A DNA stretch of 64,000 nucleotides from an uncultured Gammaproteobacteria bacterium (lineage in GTDB: Bacteria; Pseudomonadota; Gammaproteobacteria; Steroidobacterales; UBA11654): positions 60,571 to 124,570 of the forward strand of contig CALMWC010000011.1 of assembly GCA_937801655.1 (NCBI GenBank), read 5' to 3'. Under the pieces are notes generated by a model. The model was not told the DNA's origin. It worked only from the letters and a program-made list of their open reading frames with translations, and searched no databases. This document shows positions 6,553-27,666 of this stretch, in pieces (within the stretch, counting starts at the first letter, position 1; the number at the start of each line of letters is the position of its first letter). A program made the translations under genes and the position numbers.

Positions 6553-6581
6553 AATATACCACCTATTTATCATTTGATAAA
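6553..6581 (-). promoter_or_regulatory. Putative sigma70 promoter for the CoA-transferase operon
   Basis: On the minus strand TTTATC (6581-6576), a 17-bp spacer and TATATT (6558-6553) form a plausible promoter. The -10 matches consensus at five of six positions; the -35 is weak. The -35 and spacer lie inside palindrome 1, so a bound protein would block RNA polymerase. Confidence 0.45.
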
Positions 6582-6584
6582 TAG
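6563..6584. promoter_or_regulatory. Palindromic operator copy 1
   Basis: A perfect inverted repeat with 10-bp arms and a 2-bp spacer: CTATTTATCA-TT-TGATAAATAG. It lies 33 bp upstream of the CoA-transferase start codon and overlaps the putative promoter. The same core occurs at four other intergenic sites in the first 28 kb. Arm length and spacing suit a dimeric TetR-like repressor, though the partner is not shown. Confidence 0.75.
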
Positions 6585-6612
6585 TGTATCAACTTTTAAA
6601 CAAACACTAATT

Positions 6613-8043
6613 TTAAATATTGTCAGAGTTTATAGTTTTTTTTAAAAATTCTGATGCTGATCTTCCAGCTAATCTTCCAAAAGTCGTTGCAGTTAGAAGA
6701 CCATTACCAGCCATGTATCCCCAGTCAGAAGGTCCAGATATACCTCTTGCAGATCCACCTCCTGCAAATAAATTGGGTAATTTCTGACGTTCTTTATTTA
6801 ATACTCTTGCTGAACTGTCTACCACTAAGCCACCTTGTGTATGAAATAAAGCCCCAGTTACTTTAACTGTATAATATGGTGCCCTGAGTGGTTCTTTTCC
6901 AGTAAAATCTCTTCCAAAGGGATCTTCTAAACTTCCTGAAACCATTTTCTCAACTGATCGGACTGTTTGTTCTAATATTTCTTTATCTATATTTATTACT
7001 GAAGATAACTCATTAAGATCTTCCACGCGAATAATAGCATTCGCTTCTATAGCATTATTATAATCCTCAAATTCTTTCATTAAATCATGCAGTCTTTGAT
7101 CAAAAATATTCCAAGCATATTTTTCAGGTTGAGCAACTACCTTTACCGCTTGTTCAGAGTATCCAAGACTTTCATCAGAGAATCTTTGCCCTAAATTATT
7201 TACTTGAAAAGCACCTTCCATGATCATTGGCCATAAAATAGGAACGCCACGACCCACAGCCAAGCCACCATGCCCCTGAAAAGAAGATATATCAGCCAGA
7301 TCCGCTCCCAATAATTTACCCCATTTAATGGCATCACCTTTATTTCCCGGATGGCCAAAAAATACTGCGTCTTTAATTTCTGGAATGAATTCTTTCAACA
7401 TTTCAGGATTGCCTGCAAACCCACAGCAAGCTAATATAAGAGCATCGCATCCAATGTCTTCGGATGTTCCATCTTCTCTTGTGATTTTGACTCCAATGAC
7501 TTTATTTTTTTCATCACTGTACAGATCTGTTACCAACGAATTTGTTAGAATATCTATTTCAGCTTTTTCAGCAGCATTACATAGCGAACCCATTAACTCG
7601 CTGCCTGTTCTGTTTGGTGTGCCATGCATTCTCATGACTGAATGACCAGGATAAAGAAAACTATCGACTAAGCTTAAAGGGATATCGTATTTTTCTATTA
7701 GCCATTCTATAGTTAGTGCTGATTCACTAGCCAAAGTATGAGCAATATCAGAATCGGTTTGATGTTTTGACTTTTTAATAATGTCATTGGTAAATAATTG
7801 AACGCTATCTTCAATTCCTGCTGCTTTTTGGAGTTTGGTGTTAGCACCAGGTATTAATCCTGTAGACATTGCTGTTGTTCCTAATGGCGTTGAGTCTCTT
7901 TCCAGCACAATGACTTCCGTCCCCATTTCTTTAACTGCCAGAGCAGCACAAAGACCACAAGCACCGGCACCTATAACAACGACAGGTATTTGATACTCAA
8001 ATATTTTTTTATTATCAAAAATTACAGACAAACTTATTCCCAA
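6613..8043 (-). CDS. FAD-dependent dehydrogenase (FAD_binding_2; ketosteroid dehydrogenase/fumarate reductase-like)
   Basis: 476 residues. The N-terminal Rossmann motif VVVIGAGACGLCAALAVKEMGTEVIVLERD binds FAD; the end carries LPNLFAGGGSARGISGPSDWGYMAGNGLL, the second FAD-contact region of this family. No signal peptide is seen, so it should be cytoplasmic, unlike its exported relative at 16943. Members include fumarate reductase, 3-ketosteroid delta1-dehydrogenase and similar enoate-forming enzymes. The ORF begins with TTG directly after the stop of the MBL gene, so the two are translationally coupled; a slightly later start is possible because the Rossmann motif begins near residue 20. It probably desaturates or reduces a ring or acyl intermediate. 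Confidence 0.87.
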   Translation of the reverse strand: MGISLSVIFDNKKIFEYQIPVVVIGAGACGLCAALAVKEMGTEVIVLERDSTPLGTTAMSTGLIPGANTKLQKAAGIEDSVQLFTNDIIKKSKHQTDSDIAHTLASESALTIEWLIEKYDIPLSLVDSFLYPGHSVMRMHGTPNRTGSELMGSLCNAAEKAEIDILTNSLVTDLYSDEKNKVIGVKITREDGTSEDIGCDALILACCGFAGNPEMLKEFIPEIKDAVFFGHPGNKGDAIKWGKLLGADLADISSFQGHGGLAVGRGVPILWPMIMEGAFQVNNLGQRFSDESLGYSEQAVKVVAQPEKYAWNIFDQRLHDLMKEFEDYNNAIEANAIIRVEDLNELSSVINIDKEILEQTVRSVEKMVSGSLEDPFGRDFTGKEPLRAPYYTVKVTGALFHTQGGLVVDSSARVLNKERQKLPNLFAGGGSARGISGPSDWGYMAGNGLLTATTFGRLAGRSASEFLKKTINSDNI

Positions 8044-9090
8044 TCAAATGCTTTGATAATAGTTAATACCTTCACTATTTTTTTTCATTTTCATTCTTTC
8101 TTCACCTATCAAGTAATTTAAATGAGCAAGACTTTCGCCCACAGCCAATATTAAAGAGTTTTCATTAATCTCATTTACAAACAGGGCGGGAAATACTTCA
8201 ATGACATTTTTTGGCTCTTTACAAAAGTCGAAGAGCGACTCAATCTTTTTCATATGATCTTCAATCAATGCGTCTATCCTCTTATGAGCCCCATAATAGG
8301 GGTAACCATGAGATGGAAGAATTAACACATCATCTGGAATGATTGTTTTAATCTTTTTAAGGCTTTTTATCCAATCATCTAATGGGTTAGTTTCAGCATG
8401 AAAAGGTCTCACACTTATATTCGGTGTGATCCTAGGCAACAATACATCACCGCATATAAAGATATTATTTTCTTTAGAATACAAACAAGCATGTTCAGGA
8501 GAATGACCTTTAGCGATAACAATTTCCCATTCAATATCTCCCAGAATCACACTGTCTTCATTCTGCAGTCTTATATAATTTCTATTGAGGGGAGTAACAA
8601 GGGTTTTTCTAAGGGTAACTCTTTCTAGATAACGTTTGATTGATGCATCGTCATAGCCACAACTTTTATAGAAATCCAATGCAATAAATTCTTGAGACTT
8701 TTCAATACCTTTACTTAATATTTGTGTTTCTTGAAATTCTTTTTTAGTAAAGTATGGGTCCACTTCCCAATGATCAGAGAGCCATCCTGCTAAACCAGAA
8801 TGATCCAGATGCATATGTGTAATTAGGAGTTTTTCTAGCTTTTTTCCCTTGAATAATGTTTCAAATAAATTGATCCAGATTGCCTTAGATTCATCATTCG
8901 CCATACCACTATCAATAATTGTCCATCCTTCACTTCCTTCCAGTAACCATAAATTAATATGATTGAGCGCTATGGGTAAAGGCATTCTTAACCAATAAAG
9001 ATTAGGGAATACTTCTAGAACATCTCCATTAGGAGGTCTCTTTGAAAATGGATAATCCAATGTATTATTTCCTTTTGTTTTTTTACTCAT
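8044..9090 (-). CDS. Metallo-beta-lactamase fold hydrolase
   Basis: 348 residues. The metal signature LLITHMHLDHSG (HxHxDH) is followed by AKGHSPEHACLY, the metal-bridging Asp in FICGDVLLP and a final His in LPSHGYP, so the di-metal site is complete. The long C-terminal helical extension resembles the MBL proteins found with acyl-CoA genes. No signal peptide is seen. These enzymes hydrolyse thioesters, lactones or other esters. The position between acetoacetyl-CoA synthetase (41 bp upstream) and an FAD dehydrogenase (0 bp downstream) suggests lactone or acyl-thioester hydrolysis in the same pathway. Confidence 0.88.
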   Translation of the reverse strand: MSKKTKGNNTLDYPFSKRPPNGDVLEVFPNLYWLRMPLPIALNHINLWLLEGSEGWTIIDSGMANDESKAIWINLFETLFKGKKLEKLLITHMHLDHSGLAGWLSDHWEVDPYFTKKEFQETQILSKGIEKSQEFIALDFYKSCGYDDASIKRYLERVTLRKTLVTPLNRNYIRLQNEDSVILGDIEWEIVIAKGHSPEHACLYSKENNIFICGDVLLPRITPNISVRPFHAETNPLDDWIKSLKKIKTIIPDDVLILPSHGYPYYGAHKRIDALIEDHMKKIESLFDFCKEPKNVIEVFPALFVNEINENSLILAVGESLAHLNYLIGEERMKMKKNSEGINYYQSI

Positions 9091-9131
9091 ATTTTTATCT
9101 TTTTTTATATTAAATGCATTTTGCTCTAATG

Positions 9132-11078
9132 TCAGTCTTGTATTCTTAGCTGCCTAAAAAAATCGAGAGACTGAGGATTAGCTAGAGCCTCAATATTTTT
9201 TATTTCATTGCCATTGATTGCGGCTTTTACTGAAAGCTCAGAAATTTTTCCACTTCTTGTTCTTGGTATATCTGGAACCAATGTTATTTTTTTAGGAACA
9301 TGTCTAGGGGTTGTATTTGCTTTGATTTCCTCTTTAATTTTTTTGATCAATTCTTCTGTCAATTGTTTATTTTCTTTTAAGATTATAAAGAGGGAAACAA
9401 AAGAGTCCTGATTATCTTCCTCATCAATCACAACTGATTCAAGTATATTTGGGAACTTTTCCAGTTGTCTATAAATCTCACCAGTCCCAATTCTTATTCC
9501 GCCTGAGTTTAGAGTTGCATCCGATCTACCAAATATAATAAGGCCACCATGATCTGTAAAAGATGCATAGTCTCCTTGCGCCCATACATTATTGTATTTT
9601 TTAAAATAGCTGTTTTTATATTTTTTATTATTTAAGTCATTAAAAAACCCTATTGGCATGGATGGAAATGATTGAGTGCAAACTAATTCACCTTTACTAC
9701 CTATGGCTGCTTCTTCCCCTGAGTCATTGAATATTTTTACGGCCATACCTAAACCTTTGGATTGAATCTCTCCTCTGTATACGGGTAAATTAGGATTGCC
9801 TAGTGCAAAGCATGAAATAATATCAGTACCACCAGAAATACTGGAGATCTGCGTATTGCTTTTTATGTTTTTTTCAATGTATTCAAAATGGTCTATTAGC
9901 AATGGAGATCCAGTGGAGAGAATGGTTTTGATGGAGCTTAAATCATTATGATTCTTGGGTTTATGCTTCTCCTTCATTAATGCACTTAGATATCTGGGAC
10001 TGACTCCAAAGATATTAATTTCTTCTTCTTCAGCAATTCTCCATAGATGATTGGGGTCTGGAAAAAAAGGTGATCCCTCATACAATATGATAGTGGCCTC
10101 ACTCGCTAAGGCGCTGACTAACCAATTCCACATCATCCAACCGCAGGTAGTAAAAAAGAAGATACGATCATTCTTTTTAATATTTGTATGAAGACGATGT
10201 TCTTTCAAATGTTGCAGTAGAGTGCCACCTGCACCATGGATAATGCATTTCGGTTTACCCGTTGTTCCTGATGAATACATTATAAAAAGAGGGTGATTGA
10301 ATGGGAGTGATTCGAATTCAAGATCATGATCATTAAGAAGGCAATCCTTAAAATTAATAATCTCAGGTATCGCATTGATTTCTTTTAATGGATTTTCTTG
10401 TACTAGGATTATTTGATTCAAGCTTTTGATTTTTTTATTCAGGCTTAAGATATTCTCAGTGAGATCAAAATATTTCCCACCGTATTGATACCCATCAACC
10501 GCAAATAGTATTTTTGGTTCTACTTGACCAATGCGATCAATAATTCCTTCAATACCAAAATCAGGAGAGCAGGAGGTCCAAATAGCACCAATGCTTGAAG
10601 TGGCAAGCATTGCAACAATTGTTTCAGGTCGATTGGTCATTACTGCACCAATTACATCACCTTTTTTAATACCAGATTTTTTAAGGAAGCCACTTAATTT
10701 AGAAACAGATGCATAGAGTTCTTGATAACTCATATCGAGTCGATTGCCATTCTCCTCTTTAAAGATGATCGCTGTTTCATCGTCTCTTCGTTTTAGCAGA
10801 TGATAAGCAAAATTTAATGTTGAACCTGGGAACCATTCATCATCCATAATATGATTAGCGCTTATAAGAGTTGCTTTAGGCACTGTTGTAAAGTTTACAT
10901 CGGAGTATTTCGCAAAAAGATTCCAAAAGTCAGTATTGTCTATTGTCGACCAAGTATGCAATTGCTCATAATTATCAAAGCTCAGACCATGATGCATCTT
11001 GAGGTAGCTAAGAAAATCAGACATCAGGCTGATTTCCTGATCACTTGGTTGCCAACTTACATGAGATTTTCCAGACAT
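9132..11078 (-). CDS. Acetoacetyl-CoA synthetase (acetoacetate-CoA ligase)
   Basis: 648 residues, the usual length of AACS. It has the N-terminal ACAS-type region with WNLFAKYSDV, the P-loop-like IMYSSGTTGKPKCIIHGAGG typical of AACS rather than plain acetyl-CoA synthetase, and the C-terminal catalytic Lys in RTRSGKISELS. It would activate acetoacetate with ATP and CoA. Acetoacetate is a common end product of homogentisate-type ring cleavage and of leucine or isoprenoid degradation, so this gene hints at the last step of the pathway. It heads a minus-strand unit whose upstream region, shared with metF, holds two operator copies. Confidence 0.93.
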   Translation of the reverse strand: MSGKSHVSWQPSDQEISLMSDFLSYLKMHHGLSFDNYEQLHTWSTIDNTDFWNLFAKYSDVNFTTVPKATLISANHIMDDEWFPGSTLNFAYHLLKRRDDETAIIFKEENGNRLDMSYQELYASVSKLSGFLKKSGIKKGDVIGAVMTNRPETIVAMLATSSIGAIWTSCSPDFGIEGIIDRIGQVEPKILFAVDGYQYGGKYFDLTENILSLNKKIKSLNQIILVQENPLKEINAIPEIINFKDCLLNDHDLEFESLPFNHPLFIMYSSGTTGKPKCIIHGAGGTLLQHLKEHRLHTNIKKNDRIFFFTTCGWMMWNWLVSALASEATIILYEGSPFFPDPNHLWRIAEEEEINIFGVSPRYLSALMKEKHKPKNHNDLSSIKTILSTGSPLLIDHFEYIEKNIKSNTQISSISGGTDIISCFALGNPNLPVYRGEIQSKGLGMAVKIFNDSGEEAAIGSKGELVCTQSFPSMPIGFFNDLNNKKYKNSYFKKYNNVWAQGDYASFTDHGGLIIFGRSDATLNSGGIRIGTGEIYRQLEKFPNILESVVIDEEDNQDSFVSLFIILKENKQLTEELIKKIKEEIKANTTPRHVPKKITLVPDIPRTRSGKISELSVKAAINGNEIKNIEALANPQSLDFFRQLRIQD

Positions 11079-11095
11079 ATTAAATAAAGTATGTG

Positions 11096-11111
11096 TTAAT
11101 CAGTTGATAAA
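11096..11111. promoter_or_regulatory. Weaker operator copy 2b
   Basis: TTAATCA-GT-TGATAAA, a 7-bp inverted repeat with one mismatch and the same 2-bp spacer as the stronger copies. It overlaps the -35 hexamer of the metF promoter, 22 bp before palindrome 2. The left arm matches the TTAATCA variant seen in copies 3 and 5. Confidence 0.5.
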
Positions 11112-11131
11112 TTAAAGAGAGATATTATAAT
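11104..11131 (+). promoter_or_regulatory. Strong sigma70 promoter for the metF unit
   Basis: TTGATA (11104-11109), a 16-bp spacer and a perfect TATAAT (11126-11131). The predicted start of transcription, near 11138, falls inside palindrome 2, while the -35 lies in copy 2b. A repressor on either site would occlude the promoter. Confidence 0.65.
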
Positions 11132-11133
11132 CT

Positions 11134-11153
11134 TATTTATCAACTGATAAATA
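11134..11153. promoter_or_regulatory. Palindromic operator copy 2
   Basis: A perfect 9-bp inverted repeat with a 2-bp spacer: TATTTATCA-AC-TGATAAATA. It sits 3 bp downstream of the TATAAT of the metF promoter and 13 bp before the metF start codon, in the divergent region shared with acetoacetyl-CoA synthetase. Confidence 0.75.
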
Positions 11154-11166
11154 GTAAATAATTAAT

Positions 11167-12054
11167 ATGGTATCTTTTTCTTTAGAATATTTTCCACCGA
11201 AAGTGGAAACAGATAAAACTGATCTGATAGAGCAGGCTGAGGTCATGTCTTTTTATAAACCTCTTTATATGAGTATTACCCATAGCTTCAATTCTGTGGG
11301 CACTAACAATACATTGGATATTGCTCAAAAAATATCATCTAGAATCAATACTTCAGTGATACCGCATATGACTTGTGCTAGGTATTCAAAAGAAGCCATG
11401 ATATCCATGGCGAATGATTATTCCAATATAGGGATCAGCTCTGTTGTAGCTCTTAGAGGCGATGGAAATTCTGAATACTCCCAATTGGATAGATACAACG
11501 ATGCAAAAGAATTCACTCAGGCTCTATCAAATAAGTTTTCATTCAAAATACTCACTGCTGGATATCCTGAAGGTCATCCTGAATCAATCAGTCAAGAAGC
11601 CGATATGCTTTATTTAAAAGAAAAATGTGTTGCTGGTGCCGATGAAATAATTACACAATGGTTTTTTAATAATGAAGATTTTCTAAAGTATAGAGACAAT
11701 GTTAATGCCTTTGGTATAGATAAACCTATTGCGGCTGGAATACTGCCCATCAGCGATTTTGAAAAAGTTAAAAAATTTGCAAAAGTATGTGGAGCAAGAA
11801 TACCTCAGTCATTGGAGCAGAAATTTTCTTCAATCAGAGAGAATGATTATCAGGGCATAGAAGAATTAGGACAAAGCATTGCTATTGATCAAATTGAGAA
11901 TTTAAAAAAAGAAGGCGTTGACAATTTTCACCTCTACACACTCAATAGAAAAAAATTAACACAAGATATTATTCATCATTTTAAAAAGCCGATTAACCCT
12001 CAAACTAAACATAATAATGAAGGCTTACTAAAAAATAATAGGAAAGCGTCTTAG
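11167..12054 (+). CDS. metF: Methylenetetrahydrofolate reductase (MetF family)
   Basis: 295 residues, the normal bacterial MetF length, a TIM barrel using FAD. The N-terminal FSLEYFPPK is the family signature (FEFFPPK), followed by PHMTCARYSKE, VVALRGDG and the FAD/folate-contact stretch AGADEIITQWFFN. It interconverts 5,10-methylene- and 5-methyl-tetrahydrofolate. As a housekeeping gene it would serve methionine synthesis, but here it is the first gene of a catabolic unit with two operator copies in its promoter. In sphingomonads metF sits with folate-dependent O-demethylases and runs in the reverse direction, and a similar job is plausible here. No clear ribosome site precedes the ATG, which follows an AT-rich leader. 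Confidence 0.9.
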   Translation: MVSFSLEYFPPKVETDKTDLIEQAEVMSFYKPLYMSITHSFNSVGTNNTLDIAQKISSRINTSVIPHMTCARYSKEAMISMANDYSNIGISSVVALRGDGNSEYSQLDRYNDAKEFTQALSNKFSFKILTAGYPEGHPESISQEADMLYLKEKCVAGADEIITQWFFNNEDFLKYRDNVNAFGIDKPIAAGILPISDFEKVKKFAKVCGARIPQSLEQKFSSIRENDYQGIEELGQSIAIDQIENLKKEGVDNFHLYTLNRKKLTQDIIHHFKKPINPQTKHNNEGLLKNNRKAS

Positions 12055-12107
12055 ACATTGTGAAGCTTATTAATATAAGATAGATTCTGTTAATAAAAAG
12101 GGTAAAT

Positions 12108-12665
12108 ATGGCTAAACCACAACCACAGATGAAGAGAATTGAGCGAGAGCAACTTCCTGATAATATGAAGAGGGGTTGGGATCAGGCTACAGAACTGACA
12201 GGAGATGCAACATTTGTTGAGGTTTCAGGAAATAATCCTGCTGTATATGAGTGGTATTTTAAGGATTTCTATAAAAAACTTTTTTACTCTGGTCGATTTG
12301 AAAAAACATTGGTGGAATTAGTTAGGTTGAGATTAGCCAACCTCCATGGATGTGCTTTTTGCAATAAGGGTGATACCGTTCATGCTTTAGAATCAGGAGT
12401 CTCCCAAGATCAAATTAACGCACTTAATAATTATGAAAATGGACCCTTTACCTCAAGAGAGAAAGGCGCATTGGAATTGGCTGACCAGATGGTTTTAACT
12501 AATACTCAAGGGACATTGGATTCACCCTTGTATAAAAAGTTAAAATTAGATTTTAGTGATGGTGAGCTTTATGAGCTTGGAATGATTATGGCTGTACTCA
12601 TAGGCGTTGCTAAATTCACTTTTGTTTTTGATTTAGTTGAAAAAGAAGATTATTGTCAATTTTAG
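12108..12665 (+). CDS. Carboxymuconolactone decarboxylase/AhpD-like protein
   Basis: 185 residues. The core ELVRLRLANLHGCAFCNKGDTVHALESG contains the CxxC...H signature of the CMD/AhpD fold (HGCAFCNKGDTVH). CMD-fold proteins either decarboxylate gamma-carboxymuconolactone or act as thiol-dependent peroxidases; the CxxC favours an AhpD-like redox role, but many members in catabolic clusters remain unassigned. It has no signal peptide and follows metF by 53 bp, with GGG upstream of the ATG as ribosome site, and is followed 9 bp later by a DUF1838 gene. Confidence 0.87.
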   Translation: MAKPQPQMKRIEREQLPDNMKRGWDQATELTGDATFVEVSGNNPAVYEWYFKDFYKKLFYSGRFEKTLVELVRLRLANLHGCAFCNKGDTVHALESGVSQDQINALNNYENGPFTSREKGALELADQMVLTNTQGTLDSPLYKKLKLDFSDGELYELGMIMAVLIGVAKFTFVFDLVEKEDYCQF

Positions 12666-12674
12666 GAATAAAGA

Positions 12675-13460
12675 ATGAATCGACGTGACTTATTAACCGG
12701 TAAATATGGCCAAGGCAAGCTTGATCTTAAAAACTCAAAAGACAGCTTATACGCCTATGCAAAATTGTTGGGGTCGACAAATAATGCAATGGTTCATTAC
12801 AGTTTGGAGGGTACGATTTTTGCATACTTACCGAATGGAGCTCAAAAGTTGATTGGATTTCAGGCAATACTCAAGGGTGTTTGGGAAAAGATAGATGAGG
12901 ATTCCTATAGTTATAAGTTATTTGAATCTGGTTTCTTTCATCACTTGGATTCAAAAAACTATATCGAGACATTTGATAACCCCATTACTAATAAAAAAAA
13001 TCAACTATCGAATATTAAAGGTGGTCCCTATAAGACTGTCATCAAGCCAAGGCAACTTGATTGGGTTATTTCTGGTAACGATGTATGGATCCAAGAGCCA
13101 AAGACTAGGATGGGTCACTTTGGTGTTTCGGAGTCCACTAATCAAGACAAGCAGACGTCATTTGCAAACACTATTTTTAAAGGAAAGATCTCGGAGTTGA
13201 ATGATGAATCCTCCATTGCTTCATCAATTATGACTTATAATTACATCAGTCCATGGTATCCATTTTTTGAAATGGATGATGTGGATGGAAAGATGTACTG
13301 GCAAGCTGTAGGAAAGAAAATACAATCATGGTTCGATGTTCCTAAATCGATGAAGACATTTTTGAAAGCGAAGCAAAAAAATTATTTTGAGTCCACCAAT
13401 CCATGGTCTGAACCAACAAGTACCTTAAAGCATTTTAGAGAAAATAATAAACAAAAGTAA
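12675..13460 (+). CDS. DUF1838 protein, apparently without signal peptide
   Basis: 261 residues. It aligns by eye with the next gene: MVHYSLEGTIFAYLPNG / MVHIYYHGTIFGMTPDE, then AILKGVW / GVLKGVW, NPITNKKNQ / NPFTGELNR, GGPYKTVIKPR / GGPFDRVIKPD and SPWYPFFEMDD / TSWYPFFLMGQ. DUF1838 (Pfam) has no established function. It opens MNRRDLLTGKYGQG: an RR motif as in Tat signals but no hydrophobic stretch after it, so export is unlikely or the signal is degenerate. An AGGA ribosome site precedes the ATG. Its stop overlaps the start of the next gene (TAATG), so the two are coupled. Confidence 0.85.
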   Translation: MNRRDLLTGKYGQGKLDLKNSKDSLYAYAKLLGSTNNAMVHYSLEGTIFAYLPNGAQKLIGFQAILKGVWEKIDEDSYSYKLFESGFFHHLDSKNYIETFDNPITNKKNQLSNIKGGPYKTVIKPRQLDWVISGNDVWIQEPKTRMGHFGVSESTNQDKQTSFANTIFKGKISELNDESSIASSIMTYNYISPWYPFFEMDDVDGKMYWQAVGKKIQSWFDVPKSMKTFLKAKQKNYFESTNPWSEPTSTLKHFRENNKQK

Positions 13461-14338
13461 TGCCTATAAAAAAACAAATGAATAGAAGAGAAATAATTGG
13501 TGGAATAGGCGCTATAGCTGCTTCACCGTTTGTATCTGGTCAGGAATTAAATTTTATTGACAGAGGCATCAATTTAAATGATCCAATACAAAATGCCCTA
13601 GCTTATGCCAAGCTTATTGGTACCAGTGCAAGAAGTATGGTGCATATATATTATCACGGTACAATTTTTGGTATGACACCAGATGAGGGCGTTAAGCCAA
13701 TGATTGGGCTTACGGGAGTTTTGAAGGGTGTTTGGAAACCTTGGGTGGATAATGGTTTTTACTATACACTTTATGACTGTGGTTACTTTATGGATTTAAA
13801 GACAGGAGCACCTGTTGAAGAATTCGAAAACCCTTTTACTGGCGAACTCAATCGACCTGTGAAAATTATTGGAGGTCCATTTGATCGTGTGATCAAACCT
13901 GATTTAAGACCCTTTAAGTCAAGAGGGGATGACTTGTGGTTAGAAGAGCCCGCGTATCTTAATTTTGTTAATAAGCTTGACCCAAAAATATGGAAAAAAG
14001 CTTCCACTGGAGAGAAATTAAGCTTCCTTTATGTTGAAACCTATCATGGCAAAGTCTCAGATTTAGCTAATCCTGAGTTTGATAGTGTCCCTATGACCAT
14101 CACTTCAACTCATAATACAAGTTGGTATCCATTTTTTCTTATGGGACAAAGGCCAGGAGGCCATTACTGGCAGTCTGTTGGGAAGAAAGTTGAGAATCTT
14201 GAAGTCGATGTGCCTCCAATTCTTATAAACTACATCGAAAAAGAGTCACCCGGTTACTTCGAATCAGAAAGACCTTGGAAGAAAAGAACTGGTACATTCC
14301 AAGCTTATAAAAACCAAAGACAACCGATTAAAGATTGA
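13460..14338 (+). CDS. DUF1838 protein, probably Tat-exported
   Basis: 292 residues. The N-terminus MNRREIIGGIGAIAASPFVSGQE has twin arginines, a short hydrophobic run and a likely cleavage site, so it is probably exported folded to the periplasm. The start at 13460 overlaps the previous stop; an internal ATG seven codons in (MNRREII) would give a tidier signal. The body matches the previous gene in the motifs listed there. Tat export usually implies a cofactor or a need to fold in the cytoplasm. It is the last gene of the metF unit and converges on the exported FAD oxidase gene, 8 bp away. The function is unknown; the context suggests a periplasmic oxidation step. Confidence 0.88.
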   Translation: MPIKKQMNRREIIGGIGAIAASPFVSGQELNFIDRGINLNDPIQNALAYAKLIGTSARSMVHIYYHGTIFGMTPDEGVKPMIGLTGVLKGVWKPWVDNGFYYTLYDCGYFMDLKTGAPVEEFENPFTGELNRPVKIIGGPFDRVIKPDLRPFKSRGDDLWLEEPAYLNFVNKLDPKIWKKASTGEKLSFLYVETYHGKVSDLANPEFDSVPMTITSTHNTSWYPFFLMGQRPGGHYWQSVGKKVENLEVDVPPILINYIEKESPGYFESERPWKKRTGTFQAYKNQRQPIKD

Positions 14339-15873: not shown

Positions 15874-15902
15874 ATTTTAAAAGTTTAATCCTTATTAATC
15901 AA
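15874..15902 (-). promoter_or_regulatory. Putative sigma70 promoter for the FAD oxidase
   Basis: On the minus strand TTGATT (15902-15897), a 17-bp spacer and TAAAAT (15879-15874), followed 39 bp later by the ATG. The -35 hexamer is embedded in one arm of operator copy 3. The same TTGATT-AATAAG arrangement recurs at the paralogue's promoter near 27650. Confidence 0.55.
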
Positions 15903-16895: not shown

Positions 16896-16942
16896 TCAAA
16901 ACTCCATCCATGTCATTAAACACAACTAATCAAATTAATCTG

Positions 16943-18493: not shown

Positions 18494-18501
18494 TGCTGTA
18501 G

Positions 18502-19295: not shown

Positions 19296-19319
19296 CTAAA
19301 TAATCAAATGATAAATAAG
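19296..19319. promoter_or_regulatory. Palindromic operator copy 4 (imperfect)
   Basis: CTAAATAATCA-AA-TGATAAATAAG: the right arm equals the consensus, the left arm matches 8 of 11. It lies in the 109-bp divergent gap between the Rossmann protein gene and the MBL lipoprotein gene. On the minus strand a TTGATT hexamer inside it could serve as -35 (with TATAGT 15 bp further), as at copies 3 and 5. Confidence 0.65.
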
Positions 19320-19354: not shown

Positions 19355-21169
19355 ATGAAATTTAAACTATATTGCTTTGCAGTACTATCAACCAGTGTTT
19401 TGATTTTTAGTTGCAGTAATGAAAATACACAAACAATCAAATACTTTAATCATGCCACATCTTTTTTAGCAAACAATGAAAAGCTTGAAAGTCTTGAGGG
19501 CTATTCTATCGAAAGCGAAAGAGATGAATACATAATGGGACAGGGTCCAGAACCAGGCAAAGGTATGATGTTGTTAGCGGCCCCTTCTACAAAGGTCTCT
19601 CATCAATTAGCGAGTCAATCCATTAAAATAGATCTAATCACTACTTTAGCCGCTAGAGAGGGTGGTTATATTACAAGAGAAATAAACACTTTGCTTTTAG
19701 GAGAAGAAGGCTACCTTAGTGAAGACGATGCGATGGGAATAGTTAAAGAAAGGGATAAAATTCTCACTTCAGATAAAGCAGCAGCAAACATAAAAACCGA
19801 GAGGTTACTCAACCCACATCTTTTATTGAAAGAAGTATTAAATGATCCAAGTCTTTTGCTCAATGAAAAAATAGAAATTAATGCCCAAAGAGGTTGGAGA
19901 TTTAAGCGGTCAGAAGTTATGCCAGTAACCATTGATCGAATTCGTCAGACTGGACTTAGAACACTGATTGCAACACAAGAATGGGAGAATGAATCCAGTA
20001 AGAAAAAATTCTATCCCAAGATGATCAATAAGACTATTATCAATCCTGATTGGTTGAAAGACTGGCATGACAATACTGTTATTGATGAAGCAAATTATGA
20101 TCAATTCAGTATTAAAGATAAGTTGCATCCCATCACTTTTTTTATTGATCCAGAATCAGGAAGGATTGATAAGTTGAGCACCATGGAATGGGATGTTGTT
20201 TATGGTGATATCGAGATAGAGGTTAAGTTTGATAATTGGCAAGACTTCAATGGCATTTCTTATCCAATGACGGTTAGGATGTCACAAGGTGGTGCTCCCA
20301 GATGGGAAATAAGACGCTCAAGTGTTGAAGTCAATCCAGGTTACTCAGAAGAAACTTTTACTGCTCCGTCTGGTTTGAGATATGTTCATGATAAAGAGGC
20401 AGCAAAAAGAGGCTGGGAAGTCAGTCAAACAATGAGAATGTTTACACTTTCAGGAGCCTATCGTCCTAAAATAAATGTTATAGAGATTGAAAAAGGAATT
20501 TATTATCTGTCTGCTTTGCCAATAGATGGTGTTTATACAATGGTAGTTGAGCAGGACAATGGAGTGGTTGTTATCGAACCAGGAATGAATGATTTGAAAG
20601 GTGAGGAGATTATTAAATGGATTAAAAAAAATATACCCAATAAACCTCTTACACATCTTATTTCTTCCCATCATCATAATGATCATGGCGCAGGCATTAG
20701 ACCATATATTGCTGAAGGAGCAGCCCTTGTTGTACATGAAACTGCTGAAGAATTTTATCGAGCTCAAATCAATCGTCCCAAATCGTCTGTTGTTATTGAT
20801 GCATTAGATAGAAAAATGAGCAATTTATCTGTGACAATCATAGGAGTTTCCCCAGATGAAGGGTATACGATTAATGATTCCAATAGACCTGTAAGTGTTT
20901 ACCCAGTCTTCAACGGCCATTCTGAAGATATGGTGATTGCTTTTTTAGACAATCAAAACCTTCTTTACGCTGCCGATTTATACATAAGCGGTGTTGCTCG
21001 TGACAAACGATCGGGAACTGTGAGAGGGCCTAATGTTGTGCCTTACCATTCAGCAATATCTTTAAACGATACAATCAAGCAATTTAATATTTCTGCAGAT
21101 AATCTTCTAGGGTCTCATGATAAAGATATTGTAAGTTATCAGGATTTAATTAACTACATAACAGATTGA
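19355..21169 (+). CDS. MBL-fold hydrolase lipoprotein with long N-terminal domain
   Basis: 604 residues. The signal MKFKLYCFAVLSTSVLIFSCSN ends in a lipobox-type Cys, so it is probably lipid-anchored. About 370 residues of unrecognised, largely beta sequence precede an MBL domain with LISSHHHNDHGAG (HxHxDH), FNGHSEDMVIAF, the Asp in LLYAADLYI and a final His in LLGSHDKD. The metal site is therefore complete. The N-terminal half may be a substrate-recognition domain; I do not recognise it. Exported MBL proteins hydrolyse esters, lactones or sulfate esters. The stop overlaps the start of the next gene by four bases, so the genes form an operon downstream of operator copy 4. Confidence 0.87.
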   Translation: MKFKLYCFAVLSTSVLIFSCSNENTQTIKYFNHATSFLANNEKLESLEGYSIESERDEYIMGQGPEPGKGMMLLAAPSTKVSHQLASQSIKIDLITTLAAREGGYITREINTLLLGEEGYLSEDDAMGIVKERDKILTSDKAAANIKTERLLNPHLLLKEVLNDPSLLLNEKIEINAQRGWRFKRSEVMPVTIDRIRQTGLRTLIATQEWENESSKKKFYPKMINKTIINPDWLKDWHDNTVIDEANYDQFSIKDKLHPITFFIDPESGRIDKLSTMEWDVVYGDIEIEVKFDNWQDFNGISYPMTVRMSQGGAPRWEIRRSSVEVNPGYSEETFTAPSGLRYVHDKEAAKRGWEVSQTMRMFTLSGAYRPKINVIEIEKGIYYLSALPIDGVYTMVVEQDNGVVVIEPGMNDLKGEEIIKWIKKNIPNKPLTHLISSHHHNDHGAGIRPYIAEGAALVVHETAEEFYRAQINRPKSSVVIDALDRKMSNLSVTIIGVSPDEGYTINDSNRPVSVYPVFNGHSEDMVIAFLDNQNLLYAADLYISGVARDKRSGTVRGPNVVPYHSAISLNDTIKQFNISADNLLGSHDKDIVSYQDLINYITD

Positions 21170-22161
21170 GGATTAAATTGATAAAAGATTTTGAAAATAT
21201 CGATCTTAAAATCTTTTCAACACTCATTGTTTTGGGATGTATCTTTTTTTCATATGAGATCAATAGCCAGCAACAATTGATACAGGATTGCGAGTCATGC
21301 CCAACGATGGTTGTCATTGAGCCGGGTAACTTTACAAAGGGTTCACCATTAAGTGATAAAGGTTCAAGGGACGATGAGAGGCCTCAACATCAAGTGGACA
21401 TCAATTATAATTTCGCTATTGGTAGGTATGAAGTAACGAGAAGAGAATTTGAGAGATTTGTTCAGAGTACAGGTCACGATAGTTCAGGTGGATGCTATGG
21501 AGCTACTGATGATGGTATACAGTTGGGGATTGATTTGAATTGGTATGATCCGGGTTATCCCATCACAGACAATCACCCTGTTGTTTGTGTGAGTTGGAAT
21601 GAAGCCATGTCCTATGCTCAATGGTTGAGCAAAGAGACGGGAGAAACTTACCGATTATTATCCGAATCAGAATGGGAATATTCTGCTAGAGCTGGAACTA
21701 AAACCGTTAGATTTTGGGGCGATTCAGATGAAGGTTGTGATTATGCTAACGGAGCTGATTTGGATATTACTCCAGAAAGTTTTTTAGAAGAAATGAAGGG
21801 CAGGGGCAGTAAAATAGTTTTGCCTGAAGATTGGGTTGTTGCCGATTGTCACGATGGGTATGAATATTCTGCACCAGCAGGATCATTTGAACCCAATGAT
21901 TTTGGGGTTTATGATATTTTAGGCAATGTGGCTGAATGGGTAGGTGATTGCTGGGATGGTTCTTATGAGAATGCACCCAGAGATGGAACAGCTAGATTAA
22001 CGGGAGATTGCAATCGTCCGATACTCAGAGGAGCATCATACTACGATATGCCATTGTATTTAAGATCAGCGAATCATTATGGTTTTCAATCCAATCAATC
22101 AGAGAATAAAGACACACGTTACATTAATTTTGGATTCAGAGTACTAAGAGAAATGAATTGA
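21166..22161 (+). CDS. Exported SUMF1/FGE-sulfatase domain protein
   Basis: 331 residues. A hydrophobic N-terminus (KIFSTLIVLGCIFFSYEINSQ) precedes CPTMVVIEPGNFTKGS, the family opening, followed by RYEVTRREFERFV, NHPVVCVSWNEAMSYAQWLS, YRLLSESEWEYSARAG, GNVAEWVGDCWDGS and FGFRVLRE. These are the marks of formylglycine-generating-enzyme-like proteins (C-type lectin fold). Most bacterial members do not make formylglycine, and no sulfatase gene is visible here. The start is a TTG overlapping the previous stop; another TTG four codons later is equally possible. It is probably periplasmic, in one operon with the MBL lipoprotein and cytochrome. Confidence 0.88.
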   Translation: MRIKLIKDFENIDLKIFSTLIVLGCIFFSYEINSQQQLIQDCESCPTMVVIEPGNFTKGSPLSDKGSRDDERPQHQVDINYNFAIGRYEVTRREFERFVQSTGHDSSGGCYGATDDGIQLGIDLNWYDPGYPITDNHPVVCVSWNEAMSYAQWLSKETGETYRLLSESEWEYSARAGTKTVRFWGDSDEGCDYANGADLDITPESFLEEMKGRGSKIVLPEDWVVADCHDGYEYSAPAGSFEPNDFGVYDILGNVAEWVGDCWDGSYENAPRDGTARLTGDCNRPILRGASYYDMPLYLRSANHYGFQSNQSENKDTRYINFGFRVLREMN

Positions 22162-22829
22162 TATCGTCGATAAAATATACTCATATTTTTTTATTCTTCT
22201 TCTTATTTCTTGCAAGTGCTAATGGTAATGGTGTTGAATCAATTCCTGAAAAAGTGAGAACCTGCGTCGCTTGTCATGGTGAGAGTTTTCAAGGAATCAG
22301 AATTCTTAATGCACCTTCGTTAGCCGACTTGAGTGAATTGTATTTAATAAGACAATTAGAAAATTTTCAAAAGGGAATAAGAGGAAGCCATCCTAAGGAT
22401 ATATATGGGCAGCAAATGACAATGTCTGTAATTAATTTGTCTAGTGAAGACCTAAACGAAATAACAAGCTATATAGTGAATCACTCAAAATCAAATCTTG
22501 AAAAGACTGTCTATGGAGATCTTGAAAAAGGCGAGTTTGTATTTCAACATTGTATGTCTTGTCATGGAGAGTTTGCAGAAGGAGATATGGACATTGGTGC
22601 TCCAAAATTAAGTGGACTTAATGACTGGTATCTATTAAATCAATTACTGAATTTTAAAAATGAAATTAGGGGAATCCATCCCGATGATTTATTTGGTAAG
22701 CAAATGATGGAGACGGCTCAAATGTTTAATGAGGAAATGTTGAAAGATGTTGTCGCCTATATCTCTGAGGAAGACTTTTCTTCTCAGGATGATAAAGAGG
22801 CTGATAGTAGATTAAGATCTCCCCTATAA
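22158..22829 (+). CDS. Periplasmic diheme cytochrome c (c4-like)
   Basis: 223 residues with a Sec signal (IFLFFFLFLASANG). Two similar heme domains follow: RTCVACHGESFQG near residue 36 and QHCMSCHGEFAEG near residue 132, each followed by a PSLADLSELYLIRQL / PKLSGLNDWYLLNQL repeat and a Met-rich region (QQMTMS, KQMMETA) able to supply the axial Met. This is the cytochrome c4 layout. It would carry electrons in the periplasm, plausibly from the exported flavin enzymes at 14347, 16943 and 26080 to an oxidase. It starts with TTG, overlapping the previous stop, so it is the third gene of a coupled operon. Confidence 0.9.
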   Translation: MISSIKYTHIFLFFFLFLASANGNGVESIPEKVRTCVACHGESFQGIRILNAPSLADLSELYLIRQLENFQKGIRGSHPKDIYGQQMTMSVINLSSEDLNEITSYIVNHSKSNLEKTVYGDLEKGEFVFQHCMSCHGEFAEGDMDIGAPKLSGLNDWYLLNQLLNFKNEIRGIHPDDLFGKQMMETAQMFNEEMLKDVVAYISEEDFSSQDDKEADSRLRSPL

Positions 22830-22862
22830 TTTCCTTATACAAATAAACTATACGGATTTCCG

Positions 22863-23708
22863 ATGATAATAAAATTGGCGGCTATTATGCTCACAGTGCT
22901 TATTGCTTTGGTGGTTGGCTTTAATGTTTGGGGTGTTGCAACGCAGGGGTCTTTAGAGCCTGCACTCAACGCCGAGCGTGATACCAGTGCCAATAGGGTT
23001 GTTATGGTTTTTGGCGCATCAGGTTCCGCTGGTGGCGGCTTATTAAAAGCGGCTGTTGAGGATAATGAAGTAGAAAAAGTCTATGTCGTTACCCGGAGCA
23101 GCACTGATTATATCGCCGCTGCCGCTGAAGACAGCGATAAAGTCTCGGTGATTATGCATAAGGACTTTACTGATTATACCGGGCTCGAGAATGAGCTCGG
23201 CGACGTTAGCACGGTACTATGGGCGCTGGGTACCTCCTCTCTGCAAGTCGACGAAGCCACTTACACGCTGATTCATGTGGATTTCCCTGCAGCCTTTGTA
23301 AAGGCCTGGTTATCTGCGCGACAAGCTGCCGGTAACATTGATTCCCCCATGGCCTATCATTTTATTGCCGGTATGGGCACCGACTCCAGCGACGCGCCCT
23401 GGGCACACGATAAACGCAAAACCGAACGGGATGTAGCGGCGATGGCTGAGGGCAATGGTCTGCGCTCATTTAGTTATCGCTCGGCCTATATACGCCCGAT
23501 CAGTGAAACGACGAATGTTGGTCATCATATTACTGAAGCTTTACTGCGTCCCGGAAAATTGGTCACCAGCTCAAAAGAGTTGGGCCAGGCCATGTTGGAA
23601 ATCAGTGCACGGACTAAGGAGTTAGCAAACGGTACCCTGCTCGATAACGGTGATAGCCTTGCTTATAGCAAAGCTTATCTATTGAGGCTGCCAAAAAGGT
23701 CAGACTAG
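22863..23708 (+). CDS. NAD(P)-binding Rossmann-fold protein, GC-rich and probably acquired
   Basis: 281 residues. A single N-terminal membrane segment (IKLAAIMLTVLIALVVGFNVWG) is followed by VVMVFGASGSAGGGLLKAAVEDNEVEKVYVVTR, a GxxGxxG nucleotide-binding motif, and YHFIAGMGTDSSDAPWAHDKRKTERDV, where YHF and the later K resemble atypical SDRs of the HTATIP2 type. Its base use differs sharply from its neighbours: many GCC, GGC, CTG and CGC codons and stretches near 50-55% GC against about 35% around it. That suggests recent transfer from a higher-GC gammaproteobacterium. The ribosome site is poor. It lies 33 bp after the cytochrome gene but may not belong to that operon. Confidence 0.85.
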   Translation: MIIKLAAIMLTVLIALVVGFNVWGVATQGSLEPALNAERDTSANRVVMVFGASGSAGGGLLKAAVEDNEVEKVYVVTRSSTDYIAAAAEDSDKVSVIMHKDFTDYTGLENELGDVSTVLWALGTSSLQVDEATYTLIHVDFPAAFVKAWLSARQAAGNIDSPMAYHFIAGMGTDSSDAPWAHDKRKTERDVAAMAEGNGLRSFSYRSAYIRPISETTNVGHHITEALLRPGKLVTSSKELGQAMLEISARTKELANGTLLDNGDSLAYSKAYLLRLPKRSD

Positions 23709-23855: not shown

Positions 23856-25322
23856 TTAGATCAAATCTTTGAACTTAGAATCAATGCGATCAAAGATCTC
23901 AGGAAAGGCATTCTCCAAACATTCCCGATTTGTTTTTGCAAACTCTAGATCCGATTGTCTTCCATTCTTCATTGCATTGATAACTATTCGACTGCCAATG
24001 CCTCGTTCAGTAGAGCTTGGATCACCAGAAAGTCCAGGTGCTTTTTCTATAATTTCACTCGATGTATAGGGTTGCCACCTAGACCCAACAGCATGCAAGA
24101 CATCATGCAGATTATGAATATCTACATCTGAGTCTAGAAGCACAGTAATTTTTGCAATTTTGAGTGATTTAGAAATATCACTACCAATGGCCATTGCTTT
24201 TTCAAAAGACACTGATGCTATGTTTACAAAACAGAATCCTGGTGTTTCTAATGGATAATGAAGTCCTAAAAAGTCATTGAATTTTTTCTTATATTTTTGA
24301 TTGAGAGCTACTTCTATTGGTGCTGTGAGACAACCACGAGTAATACCAGTGAATTGGTTAGAGAAAATTGGATTATTTCGATGCGTTATCGCTGAAACAT
24401 CCATGTAGAAGTTTTCTTCTTTTTTCTCACCAATATAACCATACATTTCACCAAAGGGACCTTCTTCTTCCATTCTATCCAGCGGTATACTTCCCTCGAT
24501 AACCATTTCGACATTAGCCGGCACTAAAATATCATTAGTTTCACACTTAACTACCTTAATAGCTTCACCTATTATTCCTCCAGCAATTCCAAGTTCATCT
24601 TCACCGTATTTTGCTACCTTTGATCCACTCATTGAGAATGTAATTGGATCGGTGCCCAAAACTATAGCAACAGCAGCTCGCTTCTCACCTCGTTCTTGCA
24701 TTCTTTTTAGAAATTTCCAGCCGTCTTGATTGACTTGTGGATTGATACTGATTTTTTTTGAGTTTTTTATTTGGCATCTATAAGTACCAATGTTCCTACC
24801 TAAATCTGGATCTTTGAGGATTACACTGCCCATATTAATATAGCAGCCACCATCTTCCGGATTGGTCTGTATGAAAGGGAAATTAAGTAAATCTATATCA
24901 TCACCCAATAATTTTACTTCTTTGCATGAAGCTTCAGAAGGTTGTATCTCAATCGGATCTATGACTCTCCATTCGTTATTATCTTTTATATGATCAGTTA
25001 TTTTATTTAAAGCATGTTTATAATTTTTTTGGGGCGATCCTTCAATTGGCATGATACCCAATGCAAGCGATTCAAAATCCCATCTTCCATAAATGTTACC
25101 CACTAAAGAGTGTTTAAATAATTTTCCTTTTGAGCGAATTTCATCAAAAAATAAGGCAGGTGCCTCATAGACTTTTGTATTATCGATAATTCTATACATG
25201 AGAGCTGTTGCTTCATATTCATCTTGATTGATTGAATCAATGTGTTCAATCAATCCAAAATGCTCAAGAGCATCAAGATAGTCTCTAAATGATTTATAAG
25301 GACCTAAATAATTTTGACTCAT
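23856..25322 (-). CDS. UbiD-family (de)carboxylase
   Basis: 488 residues, the normal UbiD/FDC length. The prenyl-FMN-dependent decarboxylase signature is present: ILVPANVEMVIEGSIPLDRMEEEGPFGEMYGY carries the Glu residues of the E-x-P-x-G-E region, and the earlier INPQVNQDGW and RAAVAIVLGTDPI fit the family. UbiD enzymes reversibly decarboxylate aromatic or alpha,beta-unsaturated acids and need prenyl-FMN made by UbiX, which is not in this window. The acidic N-terminus and lack of UbiX next door suggest a catabolic decarboxylase rather than ubiquinone synthesis, but I cannot exclude the latter. It is followed by a GC-rich gene on the other strand and preceded by the broken membrane gene. Confidence 0.93.
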   Translation of the reverse strand: MSQNYLGPYKSFRDYLDALEHFGLIEHIDSINQDEYEATALMYRIIDNTKVYEAPALFFDEIRSKGKLFKHSLVGNIYGRWDFESLALGIMPIEGSPQKNYKHALNKITDHIKDNNEWRVIDPIEIQPSEASCKEVKLLGDDIDLLNFPFIQTNPEDGGCYINMGSVILKDPDLGRNIGTYRCQIKNSKKISINPQVNQDGWKFLKRMQERGEKRAAVAIVLGTDPITFSMSGSKVAKYGEDELGIAGGIIGEAIKVVKCETNDILVPANVEMVIEGSIPLDRMEEEGPFGEMYGYIGEKKEENFYMDVSAITHRNNPIFSNQFTGITRGCLTAPIEVALNQKYKKKFNDFLGLHYPLETPGFCFVNIASVSFEKAMAIGSDISKSLKIAKITVLLDSDVDIHNLHDVLHAVGSRWQPYTSSEIIEKAPGLSGDPSSTERGIGSRIVINAMKNGRQSDLEFAKTNRECLENAFPEIFDRIDSKFKDLI

Positions 25323-25360
25323 AGAATTATGTATAGAAGGTTAATTTGATAATTATCTTA

Positions 25361-26037
25361 TCAAAAAGGTTTAACCTCGCCTAAAAAAGCCATCAAGATG
25401 ACAAGCAACCATATTGAAAATGCAGCTTTATTCAGTAATGATTGATGAGTCTTTATCTCATCTTCACCTTGCTGTTGAGCATTTATTTCATTGCTTTTTG
25501 CTAGCAGGATAGAGTCATGCATTTTACCAACAATATTTCTAATCCAGATTCCATTGAATAAGATTCCACCAAATAAAATAATTTTTAAAGACAGCCAATT
25601 AGAAGCAATAACATTGTCTGTAATTAAACAATAAGTGCCTAAGGAAAGCAGGGTTGTGGCAATTATATAACGAATGATTAGATCTATTTTTCTTAATAGT
25701 TCTCCCAAGGAAGAACCTCTTTTGAAATGGACCATCCAAACCAGTATCAACCAAGCTAGACTTAAGCATCCAAATCAGTATGAGCAATCCACCCTCTTAT
25801 TGTTGAACCGAACGTTGTAGCCAATGTAAATCCAATTGGTAGCAACAGCACTAAACTGGTTCTAGCAGACATATCAACAATAAAACGCATTGATCTGACT
25901 CGCAGTCTCTCATCTAAGCTTAAATCGTCCTTTGTGAGATAGTTGCCAATATAATAGACAGCTATGTCCCCACCGATGGCATAAACAAATAGGCAGACAT
26001 GAAAAAATGCCATTAGATCGTGAAATTGAATATTCAC
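25361..26037 (-). pseudogene. Integral membrane protein split by a single-base frameshift
   Basis: The track shows two minus ORFs, 25762-26037 (91 aa, MNIQFHDLMAFFHVCLFVYAIGGD) and 25361-25750 (129 aa). Both are hydrophobic. Upstream of the second ORF's Met its frame stays open and reads LSLAWLILVWMVHFKRGSS, which joins the end of the first ORF naturally (TDLDA then LSLAW). The break is at GATGCTTAAG near 25762; one extra T would restore one protein of about 225 residues with several membrane segments. Either a base was lost in sequencing, or the gene is decaying, or a -1 shift is programmed. The function is unknown. It lies between the UbiD gene and the second FAD oxidase in the same direction. 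Confidence 0.7.
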
Positions 26038-26079
26038 TATATTTTTACCAAAGATGATATGTGAGAGTAATGATTCTTT

Positions 26080-27558
26080 TTATACACTTGGTTTTATATT
26101 GCCATTAAGGCTGAAAAGATTCTTTGGGTCATACTTGTTTTTAACCTCAACCAATCGTCCATAATTTGTTCCATAGCTTGTGGCCACAAATTTTTGATCC
26201 TCATCCATGAGTTCATTGATATATATTCTTTCAGCACAGTATGGAGTTAAACCTTTCCAATAGTCACGGCCCCACTGTGTATACTCTTCAGTCTTTGCAT
26301 CATTCGTCCAATGTCCACCGACTTCAATATCCCACTTTGCATTTCTACCGACCCAAGGAGTCTCACTTTCAGCGACTTCCGAGACAGCACCACCAAATCG
26401 TACAACTCTCATGGTATCAAAACGACCTTCTTCATAACTCCATCTGTCCATTAATGCTTCTGTCAGTTTTGGGTTATATTCATCAATTTGTCTGCCTTTA
26501 ATATAGTACTTCCTGTAATGTGCATTTCTCTTGTCAATCACTTGCTGATGCTCCAAAAAGTTTTTCTTGGTGACTTCATCCTGCATTGGCTTACCAAAAT
26601 TCTTTATTATTTTTAGTGCTTTGTCCGCTTTATTTTCATCACCAATAAACATAGCACCTAAAAAGAAGTAACCTTGACCAGTTTGATCATTATTCCACAT
26701 ACCCGCATTCAACATTACATTCGATATCATGTCTTGAGAATAGTCATAATAGAAGTCCCAGATTTCTTTTGCGTACTTCATGTCATAGATATTTATACCA
26801 ACTATTACTTCACCATTAGGTAAAGGCCTAAGGTTATATGTAAATGAGGTGACAATCCCGAAATTACCACCACCACCTCTAACGCCCCAAAATAGATCTG
26901 GGTTTTCATCCAAGCTAGCTTTTCTAAGAACTCCATCTGCTGTGATGATGTCAACACTGACAAGATTATCCACTGTCAATCCATACATTCTCATTAATGA
27001 ACCAATCCCGCCACCGAGTGTTAGTCCTGCAACACCAGTATGCGATACCACACCAGCTGGAACTACATAACCATGTGGCAATGTTTTTGAATCCATATCA
27101 TATAGTGTGCAACCAGCTTCAACCGTAACGATTTTTCTTTGTAGATCAACATTGGTTTTTCTCATTCGAGAAAGGTCAATAATGATACCTCCATCGCAAG
27201 TAGACTTACCAGAGATACTATGACCACCGCCTCTTACAGCGGTCAATAGGTTCTGTTCTCTGGAGAAATTAATAGCTTTTTGTATGTCTGCAACACTTTC
27301 ACAATATGCAATCAATGCTGGCTTCTTATCCCAAACACCATTCCAAACTAGCCTTGCTTTTTCATAATCATAATGACCTTCCGATATTACAGTGCCTTGG
27401 AAGCTTGACATAAAATCGAGAATATCTATTTTATTCAGAACGATTTCATCTCCACTTAAAGAGATAGCAGGTTGATCATGGATTGCTGATTTAGCAACAG
27501 GTATATACGAAGCAGCAGTTAAAATGGCTGTGTTTTTTATGAAGTCTCTTCTTTTCAT
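26080..27558 (-). CDS. Tat-exported FAD-binding oxidase, paralogue of the 14347 gene
   Basis: 492 residues. MKRRDFIKNTAILTAASYIPVAKS is a Tat-like signal. The FAD domain has VRGGGHSISGKSTCDGG with the covalent-ligand His, then AGVVSHTGVAGLTLGGGIGSLMRMYGL without a Cys ligand, and ends NKYDPKNLFSLNGNIKPSV like its paralogue (QYDPNNLFRLNSNIRPSV). The two share layout and length but differ in the central substrate domain, so they may act on related substrates in sequence. It is the first gene of the minus unit that continues through the broken membrane gene to ubiD, and it is driven from the divergent region shared with the TonB receptor and operator copy 5. Confidence 0.92.
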   Translation of the reverse strand: MKRRDFIKNTAILTAASYIPVAKSAIHDQPAISLSGDEIVLNKIDILDFMSSFQGTVISEGHYDYEKARLVWNGVWDKKPALIAYCESVADIQKAINFSREQNLLTAVRGGGHSISGKSTCDGGIIIDLSRMRKTNVDLQRKIVTVEAGCTLYDMDSKTLPHGYVVPAGVVSHTGVAGLTLGGGIGSLMRMYGLTVDNLVSVDIITADGVLRKASLDENPDLFWGVRGGGGNFGIVTSFTYNLRPLPNGEVIVGINIYDMKYAKEIWDFYYDYSQDMISNVMLNAGMWNNDQTGQGYFFLGAMFIGDENKADKALKIIKNFGKPMQDEVTKKNFLEHQQVIDKRNAHYRKYYIKGRQIDEYNPKLTEALMDRWSYEEGRFDTMRVVRFGGAVSEVAESETPWVGRNAKWDIEVGGHWTNDAKTEEYTQWGRDYWKGLTPYCAERIYINELMDEDQKFVATSYGTNYGRLVEVKNKYDPKNLFSLNGNIKPSV

Positions 27559-27626
27559 TCTTTTTTCTCTATAGTTATTTTAGTGTTTTATATCTAAAAA
27601 TTCGTTCGCTTATAAATCACTAATAG

Positions 27627-27654
27627 ATTCTAATTTATTTTTCTTATTAATCAA
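27627..27654 (-). promoter_or_regulatory. Putative sigma70 promoter for the second FAD oxidase
   Basis: On the minus strand TTGATT (27654-27649), a 16-bp spacer and TAGAAT (27632-27627), 68 bp before the start codon. As at 15874, the -35 hexamer is part of the palindrome, so the two paralogous oxidases share one control design. Confidence 0.5.
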
Positions 27655-27666
27655 ATGATAAATAAG
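27643..27666. promoter_or_regulatory. Palindromic operator copy 5
   Basis: CTTATTAATCA-AA-TGATAAATAAG, 11-bp arms with one mismatch, identical over 24 bp to the centre of copy 3. It lies in the divergent region between the second FAD oxidase and the TonB receptor. Confidence 0.78.

Follow-up and report, generated by a model that had tools for sequence, protein, structure and literature searches.

Gene content of the island

The stretch of DNA analysed (hereafter the window) is 64 000 nucleotides long, with a GC content of 36%, and carries genes of an island of ∼40 kb of degradation genes. Those arranged around the operators described below are the following:

4239 to 6530, minus strand: double CoA-transferase family III protein (PF02515, E=3.8e-150, two stretches), first gene of the operator 1 operon
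6613 to 11078, minus strand: FAD_binding_2 oxidase, MBL hydrolase and AMP-binding acyl/acetoacetyl-CoA synthetase-like gene, operator 2 operon
11167 to 14338, plus strand: MTHFR-family protein, CMD-family protein and two DUF1838 proteins, operator 2 operon
14347 to 15834, minus strand: exported BBE-type FAD oxidase (PF01565 and PF08031)
15930 to 19245, minus strand: cupin-like protein, exported FAD_binding_2 oxidase and NAD-binding protein, operator 4
19355 to 23708, plus strand: MBL-domain protein, FGE-sulfatase-like protein, cytochrome c and reductase-like protein, operator 4
23856 to 27558, minus strand: UbiD-family decarboxylase, small membrane proteins and second BBE-type oxidase, operator 5
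27727 to 30429, plus strand: TonB-dependent receptor, operator 5

After the CoA-transferase gene, the operator 1 operon continues with genes at 3429, 2247 and 913. The window also contains a 732-amino-acid protein (31091 to 33289) that has a hydrophobic N-terminus, matches no Pfam family and is 81–83% identical in the related genomes G007 and G009; a tRNA-Arg(acg) gene (35498 to 35574) located after the right edge of the island and before a TetR gene at 35763; and a perfect inverted repeat, ATCAAGAAGAATAGTTCTTCTTGAT (49087 to 49111), which lies at the end of the ORF 47226 to 49100 and is possibly a terminator.

Palindromic operators in the island promoters

The operator is a palindrome of 22 letters with the half-sites TTATTTATCA-NN-TGATAAATAA and a 2-bp spacer. 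When up to three mismatches were allowed, TTATTTATCANNTGATAAATAA was matched five times in the window, against 0.04 matches expected from dinucleotide shuffles. A position weight matrix (PWM) scan of 104 kb of contig around the window yielded seven sites scoring between 18.9 and 29.8, the next best match (10.9) being located in a gene; as the training sites of the matrix include six of the seven (all but 11093), the informative part of this result is the sharp gap to the next match and not the absolute scores. All seven strong sites are intergenic and confined to one 33-kb stretch. The site outside the window, C11:55269 (window position −5301), is 5.3 kb upstream, with a luciferase-like monooxygenase gene on one side and a multi-domain L-PSP/RidA gene on the other. 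The six sites within the window, and a promoter match that accompanies two of them, are:

6563 to 6584, minus strand: operator 1, CTATTTATCATTTGATAAATAG, perfect palindrome, PWM score 28.9, 33 bp upstream of the CoA-transferase gene
11093 to 11114: operator 2a, GTGTTAATCAGTTGATAAATTA, PWM score 18.9, in the metF/acetoacetyl-CoA-synthetase-like divergent promoter
11104 to 11131, plus strand: sigma-70-like promoter match, TTGATA-16-TATAAT, the best of 6.4–20 kb, a consensus match only
11133 to 11154: operator 2b, TTATTTATCAACTGATAAATAG, PWM score 29.8, sharing the divergent promoter with operator 2a
15892 to 15913, minus strand: operator 3, TTATTAATCAAATGATAAATAA, PWM score 29.0, 58 bp upstream of the BBE-type FAD oxidase gene 14347 to 15834
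19297 to 19318: operator 4, TAAATAATCAAATGATAAATAA, PWM score 22.7, in the divergent promoter between the NAD-binding protein gene 18502 to 19245 (minus) and the MBL/FGE/cytochrome c operon starting at 19355 (plus)
27644 to 27665: operator 5, TTATTAATCAAATGATAAATAA, PWM score 29.0, in the divergent promoter between the BBE oxidase gene 26080 to 27558 (minus) and the TonB receptor gene 27727 to 30429 (plus)

The distance from operator to gene start in this island is 13–87 bp. The sigma-70-like match overlaps operator 2a and stops just short of operator 2b. A fixed geometry between operator and −35 was sought over 31 oriented promoters and was not significant (p=0.14).

Five strong copies of the palindrome had been proposed in a sequence-only reading of the window and all five are real, with coordinates 0–5 bases away from the exact starts (6563, 11133, 15892, 19297 and 27644). 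That reading had also listed weaker copies at 11096 and 33726, the former of which is operator 2a; the latter has a PWM score of 10.0, similar to chance coding matches (10.9, 10.6 and 10.2), and was discarded as noise. The reported 24-bp identity of copies 3 and 5 holds, while the description of copies 1 and 2 as perfect palindromes is true of copy 1 alone, the outermost pair of copy 2 being mismatched (9/10 arm positions match). No copy had been seen between 35 and 64 kb, and the best match there is coding and scores 10.2. Further operators had been predicted beyond the window, and C11:55269 is a strong one.

The regulon is local and the motif is almost missing elsewhere in the 1.4-Mb genome. 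By pattern search, the loose pattern was found at nine places in the whole genome, six of them in the 33-kb stretch, and the reversed pattern, used as a control, was matched once. The three loose matches outside the island are one intergenic site, C10:28289, and two inside ORFs, on C16 and C22. C10:28289 (L028:9990-10011) has a PWM score of 22.8, and a sodium-solute symporter gene starts 18 bp downstream of it; the site was not kept at those symporter orthologues for which a check was possible. Sites inside ORFs (L029, L030, L035, L039, L042 and L043) were set aside as chance or coding conservation.

Conservation and loss in related genomes

The syntenic intergenic regions of two relatives were compared, as the sequence-only reading had recommended, and sites were kept in both. 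In G009, which like G007 belongs to the same genus, the island is inverted and a site is present at 6/6 orthologous promoters, in several cases in tandem copies; in G007 sites are kept at 2/2 orthologous promoters covered by its fetched contigs. The view that several promoters have the operator in common is upheld by this comparison. The orthologous sites located were:

Operator 1: G009 L033:2488
Operator 2: G009 L032:17960 and L032:18001, in tandem
Operator 3: G009 L032:13156
Operator 4: G009 L032:12273
Operator 5: G009 L032:4914 and L032:4968; G007 L036:3099

A second BBE-oxidase/MBL divergent pair, accompanied by an operator of its own (at 1141), is present on G007:C22 (L037:1-3087), which suggests that part of the island has a paralogous copy there. 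Among ten genus and family relatives the island oxidase 26080 to 27558 is present in G007 and G009 only, the other eight being without it. The site in G012 fronts an island-homologous cluster encoding L-PSP, S15 hydrolase, amidohydrolase, TonB receptor, BBE oxidase and MBL proteins. G002 has two 1-mismatch sites, yet neither the TetR described below nor the island oxidase was detected in its assembly, which is 64% complete. One of the G002 sites (C33, L041:9667-9688) precedes a homocysteine S-methyltransferase-like gene by 16 bp, and further genes on that contig resemble, by eye, those of coenzyme F420 biosynthesis; the other (C31, L040:4488-4509) is upstream of a gene for a 791-amino-acid TonB-receptor-like protein.

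In the congener G003 a clean deletion junction (C5, L055:10132-10310) leaves a tetR stub of ∼38 codons a few bases before the start codon of an MFS gene, the orthologue of that at window position 33796. The deletion takes the counterpart of ∼42 kb, including the tetR recognition helix and all of the operators, and no operator site within three mismatches was found in the G003 genome. Given the stub, loss rather than ancestral absence is the natural reading. The sequence-only reading had taken the regulon to join genes of no obvious single pathway; the sites instead occupy one island which is present or absent as a block, and this points to one pathway. The odd gene mix in the window behaves as one unit.

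A TetR-family gene accompanies the operator

The gene proposed here as the source of the regulator, C11:51804-52460, is located 8.1–8.8 kb left of the window start. Its product, of 218 amino acids, contains a TetR_N helix-turn-helix (PF00440, E=1.5e-13, residues 23–68), and an AlphaFold model is all-helical with nine helices, although it is a poor one (mean pLDDT 60.8). The gene is syntenic in G007 (91% identity) and G009 (72%). In its own genome it has no site directly upstream, the nearest (C11:55269) being ∼2.8 kb away.

A profile of three TetR copies (own, G007 and G009) was searched against 396 genomes of the order, and an intact copy of this type was found in seven of them, in addition to the stub in G003. 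The four further intact copies (G012, G173, G100 and G323) come from three other families; a class-wide sample of 369 genomes contained no further close orthologue. Sites with at most two mismatches were present in 6/7 carriers against 4/389 non-carriers (Fisher p ∼3e-10, ignoring shared descent), congener carriers being related by descent so that the counts are not independent. In the remaining carrier, G173, a site with three mismatches lies 3.7 kb from tetR, and in both G100 and G323 one stands ∼100 bp upstream of tetR itself, in DNA of 54–55% GC. By comparative genomics, the palindromic operator lies beside regulators of this type or their targets, and at this level operator and tetR gene occur together and, in G003, are lost together.

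Plasmid relatives of the proposed regulator

Relatives of the C11:51804 TetR were found on 62 plasmid records, mostly at 34–47% identity. A PWM made without any plasmid site was run over the neighbourhoods of 17 such plasmid loci in Alpha-, Beta- and Gammaproteobacteria. A site scoring at least 20 was present at 15/17 loci and 16/17 beat all 100 shuffles; in total 23 such sites were found in 238 kb of plasmid loci, whereas 250 kb of control DNA, drawn from other parts of five of these plasmids, contained none. These counts are not independent, as two of the loci (Rhizobium and Agrobacterium) are near-copies. Most plasmid sites are directly upstream of tetR or the adjoining catabolic operon, and they are AT-rich, mostly within DNA of 55–73% GC. 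The one locus indistinguishable from shuffles was that of Sphingobium TKS, in which the recognition helix reads THPLLFRYF for TQPLLYRYF; as a single case, this proves little. The plasmid scan is the strongest sequence evidence that the TetR protein, and not mere position, goes with the motif.

Discussion

These data point to the C11:51804 TetR as the protein that very probably binds the operators, holding the ∼40-kb island under a repression that an inducer relieves. The sites, where they stand, their conservation and their joint occurrence and loss with this TetR are read directly from sequence; physical binding, repression as its sign, and an inducer are inferred. A dimer of the protein would bind TTATTTATCA-NN-TGATAAATAA in the island promoter regions and repress the island, and the inducer, probably the island substrate or an early breakdown product, would free the DNA of repressor. 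Induction would then turn on jointly uptake (TonB receptor, MFS), exported oxidation (BBE/FAD oxidases, cytochrome c) and cytoplasmic CoA-dependent breakdown. The combination of TonB uptake, exported FAD oxidases and cytosolic CoA chemistry suggests that the substrate is an organic compound first oxidised outside the cytoplasm. The genes adjoining the plasmid relatives (those for molybdenum hydroxylases, amidohydrolases and FAD-binding monooxygenase-like proteins) give a hint, held with low confidence, of aromatic or heterocyclic substrates.

The sign of the regulation could be otherwise, with the same protein binding the operators as an activator or dual regulator. A few TetR-family proteins activate, and no fixed geometry with respect to −10/−35 was seen here; however, TetR-family regulators of catabolic genes are mostly repressors, and operators 2a and 2b (11093 to 11154) bracket the best sigma-70-like promoter, an arrangement which suits occlusion. 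We consider either role unlikely. It is less likely again that another DNA-binding protein, encoded elsewhere, reads the palindrome and that the TetR is linked to it by position only. The two 1-mismatch sites in G002, where no TetR was detected, and a few isolated sites in other genomes without a TetR of this type would fit such a protein, but the operator stands beside the TetR in otherwise differing neighbourhoods in three proteobacterial classes, including directly upstream of tetR, and shared position alone is no explanation for this.

The sequence-only reading had named a different binder, the TetR encoded within the window at 35763 to 36335 (plus strand), which is of the right family and is 8 kb from the last site. 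Its gene is, however, missing from the syntenic intervals of G007 (L036) and G009 (L031), where the operators persist, no operator is present in its own promoter region, and its HTH and ligand domain fall outside the operator-linked clade; this candidate is strongly disfavoured on synteny, lies outside the conserved system and has very little probability left. The least credible reading, to which we attach almost no weight, is that of a chance AT-rich palindrome, or a terminator or stem-loop, with no regulator. AT-rich words are common in a window of 36% GC, but the shuffles and the reversed and control-DNA tests refute chance, the motif recurs in DNA of 54–73% GC where such words are rare, and the sites stand 5′ of genes.

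The proposed repression by the C11:51804 TetR ties an orphan operator to a specific regulator gene, which offers a handle for finding the inducer, and hence the substrate, of the catabolic island; with operator and TetR together, Proteobacteria can be searched for an uncharacterised TetR subfamily. We put forward, tentatively, that this subfamily (TQPLLYRYF-type helix, operator TTATTKATCRNYYGATMAATAA) is widespread and may serve as a portable substrate sensor on differing catabolic clusters in three proteobacterial classes, and that here it would govern an undescribed pathway with exported BBE oxidases, DUF1838 proteins, a UbiD decarboxylase and a double CoA-transferase.

Comparison with known systems

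On its sequence, the C11:51804 protein is a member of the TetR family that matches no named equivalog. Searches of NCBIfam and PDB sequences gave distant HTH matches only. With AcuR, BetI, KstR and other named TetR subfamilies it shares the TetR-family HTH and local control of catabolism or transport, and it scored far below every cut-off of the NCBIfam equivalog models for these. A search of the open-access literature yielded no paper with this operator, and the single paper on DUF1838 in the literature searched is unrelated. PheR was ruled out as a match, being a repressor of the IclR type with a site unrelated to the operator described here (PMC13273656).

The upstream part of the island recalls the gene types of the Rut system, with a luciferase-like monooxygenase, RidA/L-PSP and an alpha/beta hydrolase. 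RutR, the TetR-family regulator of pyrimidine utilisation, shares the TetR-type HTH, and its site is likewise a palindrome whose halves are 2 bp apart, TTGACCANNTGGTCAA. The RutR half-site is TTGACCA/TGGTCAA, however, which differs from TTATTTATCA/TGATAAATAA, and the C11:51804 protein scored 28.5 bits against a cut-off of 368 with the RutR model TIGR03613 and 25.6 against 230 with NF011584. The BBE oxidases, UbiD, CoA-transferase and TonB receptor of the island fall outside a Rut operon.

The molybdenum hydroxylases flanking the plasmid relatives raise a comparison with NicS, the TetR of nicotinate degradation; no characterised member was found among these relatives in what was searchable. These plasmid TetR/AcrR proteins, such as those of Bosea (WP_149134203.1), Agrobacterium (WP_006316150.1) and Dinoroseobacter (WP_012187476.1), resemble the C11:51804 protein in the recognition helix and have the same operator nearby, while the neighbouring genes differ and encode molybdenum hydroxylases, ABC/TRAP transporters, amidohydrolases and aldehyde dehydrogenases.
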